From contig VGDP01000008.1 in the NCBI GenBank assembly GCA_016869675.1, positions 69,147-109,545 of the forward strand: 40,399 bases of DNA, in the 5' to 3' direction. The stretch is from Alphaproteobacteria bacterium (GTDB taxonomy: Bacteria > Pseudomonadota > Alphaproteobacteria > SP197). A model generated the notes under the pieces. That model ran no database searches, was not told where the DNA came from, and was given only the letters and a program-made list of their open reading frames with translations. Position numbers and translations under genes: made by a program. Positions 33,639 to 37,520 of this stretch are shown one piece after another. Position 1 is the first letter of the stretch, and each line of letters opens with the position of its first letter.

Positions 33639-34142
33639 ATGGCGCACCGCTGGTACGTGGTGCGCAGTCACGCCCAGGCCGAGGTGCGCGCCGCCGGCCA
33701 CCTGACACGCCAGGGGTTCGCGGTGTGGCTTCCGCTGCAGTGCCGGCGCATCCGCCACGCGCGCCGCGCGGTGGCGGCCCTGCGCCCGCTGTTCCCGGGT
33801 TATCTGTTCGTTCGCCTGGATCTGGCGGGCGAACCGTGGCGCTCGGTGTTGTCCACCGTTGGTGTCGCGGCCGTCATCGGCGCCGAGGGCCGGCCCGCGC
33901 CGGTGCCCGAGTCCGTGTTCGCCGAGCTGCGTGCTCGCGCCGATGCCACGGGCGTCGTCGACCTGGGGCCGGCGCACCCGTTGCGCCGGGGCGACAGGGT
34001 GCGCTTCGCTTCGGGCGCGCTCAAGGACGTGGAAGCCATCCTGGACGCCGCGACCGATGCCGACCGGGTGGCCGTGCTGCTGCGCCTGCTGGGGCGCGAG
34101 GTGCGGCTGACCGTGCGCGCCGCCGACCTGGAACCGGCCTGA
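33639..34142 (+). CDS. NusG/RfaH-family transcription elongation factor
   Basis: A 167-residue NusG paralogue. The NGN domain reads RWYVVRSHAQAEVRAAGHLTRQG, LPLQCRRIRHARRAVAALRPLFPGYLFVRLD and WRSVLSTVGVAAVIG, with the RPLFPGYLFVRLD strand diagnostic of RfaH-like proteins. A KOW domain follows (LRRGDRVRFASGALKDVEAIL to DRVAVLLRLLGREVRLTV). Housekeeping NusG lies beside secE or rplK, whereas this copy sits in a glycan locus directly after kdsD, the usual setting for RfaH or UpxY-type factors. Those bind RNA polymerase at ops-like DNA in leaders and suppress termination through long operons. It may act on the ops-like site at 35804 or elsewhere. It converges on pyrE with three bases between the stops. 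Confidence 0.9.
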   Translation: MAHRWYVVRSHAQAEVRAAGHLTRQGFAVWLPLQCRRIRHARRAVAALRPLFPGYLFVRLDLAGEPWRSVLSTVGVAAVIGAEGRPAPVPESVFAELRARADATGVVDLGPAHPLRRGDRVRFASGALKDVEAILDAATDADRVAVLLRLLGREVRLTVRAADLEPA

Positions 34143-34728: not shown

Positions 34729-35619
34729 TCAAGCGCGCTTCGGCAGCACCACCAAAGCGACGCCGGTGGCAGCGCACGCCATGCCGGCCAGCGCCGTCGG
34801 CGCCAAGCCCTCGCCCAGGATGGCCCACGCGAACAGCGCCGTCGTCGGCGGCACCAAGAAGAACAGGCTGGCGACGAGGGTCATGGCGCCGCGCCGGATC
34901 ATCACGGCCAGCAGCGTGATCGAGACCAGCGAGATGACGACGCTGACATAGACCAGCGCGCCGATCACCTCGGCGGTCCAGGCGATGCGCCCGTCTTCGA
35001 GGATCGCGGCCAGCGGAGCGGTCGTCGCGGCGCCGACGGCGAACTGGATGACGCCGCCGGTGCGCGGGTCCATGCGCGGGCAATGGCGCTTCTGGTACAG
35101 CGTGCCGATCGTGATGCCGAGCAGGCTGACGAACGACCAGGCCATGCCCGCGGGCGTGCCCAGGCCCAGCGCCAGCTTGTTGGCGACGACCAGCACGACA
35201 CCCAGCGCGCCCAGGGCGAAGCCGGCGGCCTGGCGGCGGCTGACCCGTTCGCCCAACAGCGGCCCGGCGACCAGGGCGGTCAGCACCGGGTACGTGCACA
35301 CGATAATGGCGTTGACCGCGGCGCCGACGCCGGCACCCATCGATACCCAGGCGGCGCCGAAATAGACCGTCTGCATGAAGAAGCCAGCGACGGCGATGTG
35401 CAGGGCCTCGGCGCGGCTCGCTGGCCAGGGTGCCCAGCTGAGCGCGACCACGACGGCCATCAGCGCCGTGACGATGGCGTAGCGCAGGCCCAGCAGCGTC
35501 AGCGGGTCGGCGTCGGCCAGGCCGAGCTTGGCCGCGACGAAACCCGACGACCACAGCACGACGAAGCTGGCCGGCAGGCCGATCGTCGTGACCAGCCGCT
35601 GGGGCTGCGCAGGGTCCAA
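34729..35619 (-). CDS. EamA/DMT-family transporter
   Basis: A 296-residue member of the drug/metabolite transporter superfamily with ten helices arranged as two EamA repeats. Repeat one runs from LPASFVVLWSSGFVAAKLG through GLRYAIVTALMAVVVAL, FYFGAAW-like helices and VCTYPVLTALVAGPLLGE. Repeat two ends with LFFLVPPTTALFAWAILGEGLAPTALAGMAC. The start is uncertain. The frame stays open to 35766, but the extra residues are unlike the family and run through the operator region. TTG 35619 with GGAG about eight bases upstream gives the normal length. It may export amino acids or metabolites. It is divergent from the winged-helix gene across 228 bases that hold the tandem operators. Confidence 0.83.
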   Translation of the reverse strand: MDPAQPQRLVTTIGLPASFVVLWSSGFVAAKLGLADADPLTLLGLRYAIVTALMAVVVALSWAPWPASRAEALHIAVAGFFMQTVYFGAAWVSMGAGVGAAVNAIIVCTYPVLTALVAGPLLGERVSRRQAAGFALGALGVVLVVANKLALGLGTPAGMAWSFVSLLGITIGTLYQKRHCPRMDPRTGGVIQFAVGAATTAPLAAILEDGRIAWTAEVIGALVYVSVVISLVSITLLAVMIRRGAMTLVASLFFLVPPTTALFAWAILGEGLAPTALAGMACAATGVALVVLPKRA

Positions 35620-35713
35620 GGCGGGGCTCCGTGGCAAACGCCGGCTTGAAGCCCCTCGGACTTGGCTTGTCAAGCGTGGGCACGGCGGTCCGGCCGCATC
35701 GGCACCCAACTTA

Positions 35714-35732
35714 ATGTTCAGATTACGAACAT
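35714..35732. promoter_or_regulatory. Palindromic operator copy 1
   Basis: ATGTTC, seven bases, GAACAT. It is identical in both arms to the copy at 35748. It lies between the divergent EamA and winged-helix genes, upstream of the predicted -35 element of the latter. A homodimeric winged-helix protein would recognise such a 19-base dyad. Confidence 0.65.
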
Positions 35733-35737
35733 ATCTG

Positions 35738-35766
35738 TTGAACTCGCATGTTCGTTCTGTGAACAT
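35738..35766 (+). promoter_or_regulatory. Possible promoter of the winged-helix regulator gene
   Basis: TTGAAC (35738-35743), a 17-base spacer, then GAACAT (35761-35766), a poor -10 match that lies in the right arm of operator copy 2. If real, a protein on copy 2 would occlude the -10 region, giving autorepression. The -35 is good and the -10 weak, so the call is tentative. Confidence 0.3.
35748..35766. promoter_or_regulatory. Palindromic operator copy 2
   Basis: ATGTTC, seven bases, GAACAT, with the same arms and spacer length as copy 1. The centres are 34 bases apart, a little over three helical turns, so two dimers could bind on nearly the same face. Both copies stand in a locally AT-rich patch of a GC-rich genome. 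Confidence 0.65.
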
Positions 35767-35803
35767 GAGGCGTTCAGGGCGGAGGGACCGGTTTCACCCG
35801 CCC

Positions 35804-35814
35804 TGCGGTAGCGA
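35804..35814 (+). promoter_or_regulatory. ops-like element in the leader of the winged-helix gene
   Basis: TGCGGTAGCGA resembles the RfaH recruitment element (GGCGGTAGnnTG) in its GCGGTAG core. It sits 33 bases before the ATG at 35848, between the operators and the gene, where an RfaH target would be expected. The core also appears by chance elsewhere in this GC-rich window, so the evidence is mainly position. Confidence 0.35.
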
Positions 35815-35847: not shown

Positions 35848-36459
35848 ATGACCGACAGTTCCGCCCCGGCCTCCCGTCGCGCGCTCGAGGACGACGCCCG
35901 CGTGCGCGAGATCCTGGAGCGCATCGAGCAGTCCGAGACCATCAACCAGCGCCGGCTGGCCGCCGACCTGGGGGTCGCGCTCGGGCTGGTCAACGCCTAC
36001 GTCAACCGCTGCGTCACCAAGGGCTGGGTCAAGGTCCAGCAGGTGCCAGCCCGGCGCTACCGCTACTACCTGACGCCCAAGGGCTTCGCCGAGAAGAGCC
36101 GGCTGACGCTGCAGTTCCTCAACGACTCCTTCGTCGCGCTGCGACGGGCGCGCGCCAGCTTCGAGCGCCTCTACGACGGCCTGGAGGCCCAAGGCGCGCG
36201 CCGCGTCGCGCTGGCCGGTGACGACGACCTGGTCGATATCGCCATGCTGGCCGCGCGTGGCCGCGCGGTCGAGATCGTGGGTGCGTGGAACCCGCTCGAC
36301 GGTCCGACACCCGCATGGGACGCCGCGCGGGTCCAGACGTGGATCGTCGCCTCGGCGCGCCGCGCGGTCCCGGTGCGCGAGGCGCTGGTCGCGCGTCTGG
36401 GGGAGGTCGCCGTCGCCGCGCCGGACGTGTTGCCCATGGGCCGCAAGGGCGGGCGCTGA
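35848..36459 (+). CDS. Winged-helix transcriptional regulator with C-terminal sensor-like domain
   Basis: A 203-residue protein. Residues 15-85 form a MarR/LRP-like winged helix: DDARVREILERIEQSETINQ, RRLAADLGVALGLVNAYVNRC (helix-turn-helix) and WVKVQQVPARRYRYYLTPKG (wing). A helical linker follows (SRLTLQFLNDSFVALRRARAS). Residues 115-203 look like an alpha/beta Rossmann-type fold (ARRVALAGDDDLVDIAMLAARG, AVEIVGAWNPLDG), which could bind a nucleotide or sugar nucleotide. The N-terminal part resembles the EPS-associated MarR regulators often found beside polysaccharide operons. The gene begins an EPS gene run (asnB fragment four bases downstream) and is preceded by two identical palindromes, its probable binding sites. 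The ATG at 35848 is the first in the frame. The ligand and targets are unknown. Confidence 0.8.
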   Translation: MTDSSAPASRRALEDDARVREILERIEQSETINQRRLAADLGVALGLVNAYVNRCVTKGWVKVQQVPARRYRYYLTPKGFAEKSRLTLQFLNDSFVALRRARASFERLYDGLEAQGARRVALAGDDDLVDIAMLAARGRAVEIVGAWNPLDGPTPAWDAARVQTWIVASARRAVPVREALVARLGEVAVAAPDVLPMGRKGGR

Positions 36460-36463
36460 AGCC

Positions 36464-36711
36464 ATGTGCGGCATCGCCGGCATGATCGGGCCCCAGCCGC
36501 CGGACTCCGCGCGCATCAGGCGCACGCTCGCGGCGCTTGGCCACCGCGGGCCGGACGGCCAGTGCAGCCTTGTCACGCGCCTCGCCAACGGTCAGACGGT
36601 GGTGCAGCTGCACACGCGGCTCGCCATCCGCGATCTGGACCCGCGCGCCGGCCAGCCGTTCGCCCACGACGGCTGCGTGCTGGTGCACAACGGCGAGGTC
36701 TACAACGACCG
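36464..36711 (+). pseudogene. Asparagine synthase (glutamine-hydrolysing), N-terminal fragment
   Basis: The first 82 residues are those of an asparagine synthase of the AsnB/WbpS type found in glycan loci. MCGIAGMIG begins with the catalytic Cys2 of a class II glutamine amidotransferase, and GHRGPDGQ, TRLAIRDLDPRAGQPF and LVHNGEVYN follow. After YN the frame runs directly into aminotransferase sequence. The rest of the glutaminase domain and the entire synthetase domain, about 500 residues, are missing. The ATG lies four bases after the regulator's stop, so the intact ancestor would have been the second gene of that operon. The junction lies in bases (GTCTACAACGACCGC) similar in both parent genes (TACAAC-ACCGC), which suggests recombination at microhomology, or an assembly join. 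Confidence 0.85.
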
Positions 36712-36905
36712 CATGAACGAGGTGACGGCCGCGGTCGGCCTGGCCCAGCTGGCCAAGCTCGACCGCGTCCAGGCGGCGCGCGCGGCGAACTTCGCGGCGC
36801 TGCGCGACGCCCTCGCACCGATCGACGGGGTGACCGTGTTCCAGCCTGTCCAGGGCCGGGCCCTCTCGTCGCACTATTGCCTGAACGCCGTGCTGCCGCG
36901 CGACG
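36712..36905 (+). pseudogene. DegT/DnrJ/EryC1 aminotransferase, internal fragment
   Basis: In frame with the asnB fragment, about 65 residues match the middle to C-terminal part of a PLP-dependent sugar aminotransferase. RMNEVTAAVGLAQLAKLDRV is the helix after the catalytic Lys loop. QAARAANFAALRDALAPIDG and SSHYCLNAVLPRDG follow. The N-terminal PLP domain and the C-terminal end are absent. After LPRDGR the frame enters sequence that is the reverse complement of a membrane-protein gene and encodes no recognisable protein until a stop at 37189. It cannot be functional. A different DegT gene is cut by the right window edge at 40215. Confidence 0.75.
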
Positions 36906-37520
36906 GCCGCCACCACCGGGGCCGCGGCGGCCATGGCGAAGGGGAGGAACTGCGCGAGCGAACGGGCGAGCAAGCAAGGCCGCCCCGCACAGCAGGCCGG
37001 AGACCGCCGCGTACGCTGTGCGAGCGCTCTCCACATATCGGGCGGCGGCGAGGGTCATGGCTGCGAACAGGAACAGGAAGATCGTTTCGGTCAGCAGGGC
37101 GGCGGAATGAACGATCAGGTTCGGCCATGTCGCGGCGAAGGCGCCGGCGAGGAGGCCGACGCGCGGTCCCAACATCGCGCCGAGCTTGAAGACGAGAACG
37201 CAGGTGCCCGGGTCCAATACGCTCTGGATCGCGATGGCGGCAAGCGGCGTGTCGCCGAACACCTCGCGCACGGCGGCAAGGAACGCGAAGTAAAGCGGCA
37301 TGCGCTCGCGCCCCGGCGCGCCGTCGGGCGGGGGGTCGAGCCGGCCGTGCTCCAGAAGGAACGCGGCGCCGTCCCAGTACAGGCGCGCGTCCTCGATGAA
37401 GAAATGCGCGGGATCGCCCGACAGCGTGAGGATGTTGGCGAGGCGCAGGGCCAGCGCCGCGAAGAAGACGGCCGCCATGGCGCGCACCGGAACATCGGCT
37501 GGGTCGACGGCCATGCTCAT
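36906..37520 (-). pseudogene. GT39-like membrane glycosyltransferase, 5' fragment with frameshift
   Basis: About 200 N-terminal residues of a paralogue of the 28925-30307 gene. They include MAAVFFAALALRLANILTL, a first periplasmic loop with DARLYWDGAAFLLEHG, ERMPLYFAFLAAVREVFG, QSVLDPGTCVLVFKLGAML and TWPNLIVHSAALLTE. Near 36957-36963 the frame shifts: LLCGAALLAR continues as SLAQFLPFAMAAAAPVVAAVA one frame over, which a four-base insertion (CTCG) would explain. The gene then stops abruptly at the DegT fragment and lacks roughly half its length. The ATG at 37520 overlaps the GT4 stop as ATGA, so the intact ancestor was the last gene of the minus-strand operon that runs from the right edge. 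Confidence 0.8.

Follow-up and report, generated by a model that had tools for sequence, protein, structure and literature searches.

The window, which is the whole 40,399-nucleotide stretch of DNA analysed here, contains a gene for a winged-helix regulator preceded by two palindromes, a candidate promoter, and an element resembling ops/JUMPstart. The features of the locus, numbered from the first letter of the window, are as follows.

33639..34142, + strand: RfaH/NusG paralogue (TIGR01955, Pfam NusG), likely reader of the ops-like element
34729..35622, - strand: EamA-family transporter, divergent neighbour of the regulator
35714..35732, no strand: candidate operator dyad 1, ATGTTCAGATTACGAACAT, core GTTCA-N5-CGAAC, exact
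35738..35743, + strand: TTGAAC in the interval separating the dyads, likely -35 box of the regulator promoter, assigned by homology
35748..35766, no strand: candidate operator dyad 2, ATGTTCGTTCTGTGAACAT, core GTTCG-N5-TGAAC, exact
35761..35766, + strand: possible -10 region GAACAT, the right arm of dyad 2, assigned by its 17-base spacer
35793..35812, + strand: ops/JUMPstart-like element, TTCACCCGCCCTGCGGTAGC, behind the dyads and ahead of the regulator, in the predicted leader
35848..36459, + strand: regulator gene, 203 amino acids, winged helix (HTH_24) and a C-terminal alpha/beta domain of approximately 100 amino acids, TIGR04176-like
36464..36940, + strand: next open reading frame, 5 bases after the regulator, asparagine-synthase-type start joined to a LegC/DegT-like fragment

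Both 19-base dyads are exact occurrences of ATGTTC-N7-GAACAT with 34 bases between their centres, as reported in the preliminary description. They were called identical there, which is true of the arms but not of the 7-base centres. The divergent gap, previously given as 228 bases, is approximately 225 bases with an EamA start near 35622, and the longest mechanical EamA reading frame enters the dyads. A search of the 3.49 Mb genome for ATGTTC-N7-GAACAT found exactly these two exact copies. That such a pair is unlikely by chance was borne out, as dinucleotide shuffling, repeated 20,000 times for the gap and another 20,000 times for its AT-richer 80-base island, produced not even a single dyad. 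The reading frame behind the regulator opens as an asparagine-synthase-type glutaminase domain and then becomes LegC/DegT-like; this is probably a broken gene, truncated or chimeric, or else an assembly join.

The regulator and the conservation of its upstream dyad

The regulator meets the Pfam gathering score of HTH_24 (PF13412; 32.1 bits vs 21.9), a domain matched by all 66 members of the alignment at E <= 0.1, and is below those of the MarR families (PF01047, 16.8 vs 24.6 bits; PF12802, 17.8 vs 27 bits). The closest curated family is TIGR04176 (MarR_EPS), where the match spans residues 19-100 and scores 61.6 bits against a curated cut-off of 88; by its profile matches, the protein is a member of a related subfamily with an extra domain, outside TIGR04176 proper. 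An AlphaFold model using 66 homologues (mean pLDDT 87.9) has a winged helix, a long helix, and a small alpha/beta domain. Among the best-conserved regions is the helix at residues 45-58, which sits where the recognition helix usually does and in which G46 and N49 are invariant and L45, Y51, R54, and C55 nearly so. With the C-terminal domain, Foldseek found no match at E <= 0.001, and its sequence profile had none below E 0.05 in the PDB. VIA-align matched individual lobes of type I periplasmic binding proteins with Z scores of at most 9.8, which is too generic for a ligand to be assigned from it, and this assignment was rejected.

For comparison, 99 homologous loci (95 non-redundant) were collected from relatives and public genomes, representing Alpha-, Beta-, and Gammaproteobacteria together with contigs labelled as other phyla, some of which are perhaps misbinned. 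Within 260 bases upstream of the regulator homologues, GTTC-N7-GAAC (GTTCR-N5-YGAAC) is present in 87 of the 95 non-redundant loci. There are 136 such sites in 26.6 kb of upstream sequence, against 10 in the remaining 489 kb of the same loci. Only the 7-base spacer is enriched upstream, approximately 200-fold over the rest of the loci; each of the other spacers from 0 to 15 is found in at most three loci. Dinucleotide shuffles gave a mean of 0.36 loci with a dyad and a maximum of three. The exact dyad is missing in approximately 8% of non-redundant loci, mostly distant homologues, and the 15-base dyad is also found at shorter TIGR04176-type homologues (L187, L189, L222-L224), two of which exceed the curated cut-off.

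The 143 orthologue dyads give the consensus RYGTTCA-N5-TGAACR. Dyad 1 fits this except for the C at core position 11, present in 9% of sites, and dyad 2 has a G at core position 5, like members L004-L012 of family f1. At least two sites are present in about half of the loci, most commonly separated by 22-23 or 30 bases. These separations dominate and the 34-base spacing of the window is rare, therefore dyads 1 and 2 may be occupied independently.

Genome-wide linkage, second targets, and fusions

Tandem dyads, defined as two GTTCR-N5-YGAAC sites with 5-22 bases between them, were found in 35 of 289 genomes of the class, and the reversed pattern used as a control in one. A homologue of the regulator is present in 34 of these 35 genomes, vs 27 of the 254 others (Fisher p = 2.4e-26). 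The exception, G055, has a tandem dyad, no regulator, and no ops. In this genome, the tandem GTTCA-N5-TGAAC (L184; G055:C1, ~1637292) lies between a MATE-like transporter and an HxlR-type regulator, names that were read from the protein sequences, and may be a look-alike operator of another winged-helix family. The dyad was not found widely at unrelated genes, and it is conserved across phyla in the gaps before orthologous regulator genes. Orthologue conservation and genome-wide co-occurrence thus strongly support the earlier proposal that the palindromes are binding sites through which the downstream regulator would control itself.

The genome of the window has a second tandem pair, at 2098 and 2120 of contig C78, between divergent genes for LegC (TIGR04181, 363 bits) and LegB (TIGR04180, 397 bits), both of which score under the strict cut-offs. 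This second target was missing from the preliminary description, as was the ops-like element at 35793-35812; the rest of that reading is discussed below. Tandem sites in relatives precede PseB and/or PseC (G001, G003, G005, G015, and G219) or LegC (G128, with NeuB and NeuC homologues downstream, and G230). Other first genes behind the sites encode a formyltransferase with a NeuB-type synthase (G095), a hexapeptide acyltransferase (G162), an ABC transporter (G002), and a sulfotransferase (G293); the first genes at G197 and G288 fall outside the target assignment. Based on the genes behind the dyads, the targets are nonulosonic-acid and surface-glycan genes. Single dyads on short contigs (G001:C263, G013:C431, and G022:C590) showed no tie to glycan genes. 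At three loci of the window's family (L135, L137, and L141), dioxygenase-like genes, judged by eye to be of Rieske or extradiol type, lie across from PseB-type tandem dyads.

In family f23 (L206-L217, L021, and L190), fusion proteins of approximately 700 amino acids combine a related winged helix with ATP-sulfurylase and APS kinase; one member was domain-scanned and the rest were assigned by open-frame lengths of ~690-705 amino acids. Just upstream of the fusions, GTTCA-N4-TGAAC is present in 12 of 12 loci fetched, so the operator appears to track the winged-helix domain, with a spacer one base shorter. This suggests that the fusion may be a self-regulating sulfate-activation enzyme.

Promoter layout and the ops-like element

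In the layout of many Alphaproteobacteria, the first dyad is directly adjoined by TTGAC and the second by a -10-like TAGT or TATAG, so that dyad 1 fills the spacer between the -35 and -10 boxes. The window's own family has a single-dyad form, TTGAC-N6-GTTCG-N5-TGAAC. TTGAC-N6-GTTC in family relatives and at the second site of the genome (G000:C78) is the basis for the -35 call in the window, and because TTGAAC at 35738-35743 is in nearly the same place, dyad 2 is likely to be the counterpart of the family's single dyad. The candidate -10 region, GAACAT, matches the consensus at three of six positions and is a weak assignment.

A different arrangement is present in 34 loci, mostly in Gamma- and Betaproteobacteria, where the dyad contains the in-frame ATG of the regulator (GTTCNNNNNATGAAC). 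In 22 of these, TATA[ACG]T stands immediately before the dyad. No Shine-Dalgarno-like motif is present at the usual distance in any of the 34, and many are without any other in-frame start. In the loci with a -10, dyad, and ATG, a start 6-8 bases behind the -10 would give a near-leaderless mRNA under its own operator. The full pattern of -10 and ATG-containing dyad has one match, within coding sequence, in 398 genomes of the phylum, so the pattern is rare by chance; this sample contained few full-length regulators and is not a test of the architecture.

The enterobacterial ops/JUMPstart element, with the core consensus GGCGGTAGNNT, is located in the leader of glycan operons. The element in the window, TGCGGTAGCGA, has the core GCGGTAGC and differs from that consensus in its first and last letters. 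Its layout, TTCACCCG-N4-GCGGTAGC, is also that of the orthologue loci and second-target promoters. In the orthologue loci, GCGGTAGC occurs 66 times on the strand of the regulator vs nine on the other. In many Gamma- and Betaproteobacteria it follows the regulator at ~50-200 bases, and in Alphaproteobacteria at ~550-610 bases, commonly with the RfaH paralogue between and typically as TTCACCCGGACTGCGGTAGC. Of 15 second-target loci, 13 have an ops-like element behind the dyads on the coding strand, and LegC of the window's genome is among them.

The product of 33639-34142 scores below the TIGR01955 cut-off (106.9 vs 144.5 bits) and above that of Pfam NusG (70.7 vs 22.2 bits), which identifies it, at the level of profile matches, as an RfaH-like NusG paralogue. 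An RfaH paralogue is on the strand of the regulator in 72 of the 99 loci and never on the opposite strand. With ops-like elements at the dyad promoters and an RfaH paralogue nearby, control of initiation and RfaH/ops control of elongation appear to be coupled at the same promoters. In most relatives the paralogue and the regulator are adjacent on the same strand; in the window, PyrE and EamA, encoded on the other strand, stand between the two, perhaps because of an insertion in this lineage.

Proposed mechanism and comparison with known systems

Built on the dyads, their conservation, the regulator linkage, the second target, and the ops-like elements, all of which can be read directly from the sequences, the best explanation is that the dyads are operators of the adjacent regulator, which would act in negative autoregulation, followed by an ops-like element for the RfaH paralogue. 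We consider this reading as a whole to be highly likely. The dyads themselves are very probably the regulator's own operators. A dimer would read GTTC-N7-GAAC, with half-sites 11 bp, or one helix turn, apart. Occupying dyad 2 in the -35/-10 interval, with dyad 1 a short way upstream and binding perhaps cooperative, the dimer would block its own promoter until the C-terminal domain sensed an inducer, so that the gene opening a surface-polysaccharide operon would be negatively autoregulated. Once the ops-like element was in the transcript, the local RfaH paralogue would load there and see RNA polymerase through to the end of the long operon. This order of dyads and then ops would also control at least one other locus in this genome, the LegC gene, with LegB divergent beyond the dyads.

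Repression is argued from operator position alone. The regulator might instead bind the dyads and activate, or do both according to position or ligand, recruiting RNA polymerase to EPS and nonulosonic-acid promoters. In several architectures with spacings of 26-34, a dyad touches the -35 or lies a little before it, as would fit an upstream activating site; however, a near-universal site lies in the core promoter, in the -35/-10 interval or across the start codon, which is the classical position for a repressor, and activation is therefore considered unlikely. It is very unlikely that another regulator of the strain, for example of the HxlR or LexA type, binds the dyads and controls the locus. 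The tandem dyad near an HxlR-type regulator and MATE transporter in G055, which is without this regulator, is in keeping with such a role, but the other 34 genomes with tandem dyads all have the winged-helix regulator, and even the fusions show the site accompanying the winged-helix domain. The alphaproteobacterial LexA-like direct repeats, GTTC-N7-GTTC and GAAC-N7-GAAC, were sought in the upstream regions and occur in none of the loci.

Similarly, there is very little probability that the dyads mainly serve the divergent EamA promoter. They are in the shared gap, and a possible EamA start, at 35622, is ~92 bases away, yet they persist in the other 98 loci, none of which has a homologue of EamA or PyrE. 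Of the earlier interpretation, the core, a site of the regulator and self-control, is thus supported, and the suggestion that EamA is perhaps also controlled is not. The probability that the palindromes arose by chance in an AT-rich island, or form an RNA hairpin or terminator, is negligible: the arms can pair, and dyads 1 and 2 are also partly complementary to one another, but there is no T-run behind them, the shuffles contained no dyad, and the conservation is spacer-specific across phyla.

Autorepression combined with ops-dependent elongation may have a wider meaning. Tentatively, and at somewhat less than even probability, we propose a widespread, undescribed two-layer module for surface glycans. 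In it, a metabolite-sensing winged-helix repressor, perhaps responding to a nucleotide sugar, would control initiation at GTTC-N7-GAAC dyads and an RfaH paralogue would control elongation through the adjacent ops-like element. In many lineages the start codon of the repressor would lie in the operator, giving a leaderless mRNA, and a sulfate-activating enzyme would have taken over this winged helix at its N-terminus, together with a dyad shortened by one base. A large uncharacterised regulator family gains a candidate operator and first regulon, of nonulosonic acids and EPS, and the initiation and RfaH-dependent elongation layers are joined in one signature that can be searched for in any genome. 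The surfaces of bacteria, and their encounters with phages and hosts, are shaped by nonulosonic acids such as pseudaminic and legionaminic acid, and in these lineages little is known of how the transcription of such pathways is controlled. No published description of a GTTC-N7-GAAC operator was found among open-licence papers; earlier work may exist elsewhere.

As with MarR-type autoregulators, there is a winged helix, an inverted repeat of ~15-19 bp present twice over the regulator's own promoter, and second targets in a matching pathway. The differences are the sub-cut-off Pfam MarR score, the C-terminal alpha/beta domain, the ops-like partner element and, in many relatives, the start codon within the operator. 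The EPS setting is shared with TIGR04176, as is the dyad in some of the shorter homologues, although the window regulator has ~100 additional C-terminal residues. The predicted near-leaderless mRNA recalls that of lambda cI from PRM, which is leaderless and begins beside the repressor's own operators; that protein is unrelated, and in many relatives of the window regulator the start codon is inside the operator. In the UpxY/UpxZ system of Bacteroides capsule loci, a NusG paralogue and a second regulator are at the head of the glycan operon, whereas the second protein here is a DNA-binding-type winged-helix regulator.

The closest parallel to the elongation layer is RfaH/ops (JUMPstart), which shares the GCGGTAGC core in the leader, a nearby RfaH paralogue, and glycan operons downstream. 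It differs in that the core here is flanked by TTCACCCG-N4, a dedicated initiation regulator is added, and the present arrangement is predicted from sequence. Among RfaH clusters, CL4 is associated with an HTH regulator, and glycan and polysaccharide functions dominate the neighbourhoods of CL2-CL8 (Wang et al., 2020; PMC7593976); no operator, regulon, or MarR-type identity is given there for the CL4-associated regulator. CL4 and the present system share an RfaH gene beside an HTH regulator gene, with polysaccharide genes as the typical neighbours across CL2-CL8, and our guess is that the CL4 regulator belongs to the family of the window regulator.
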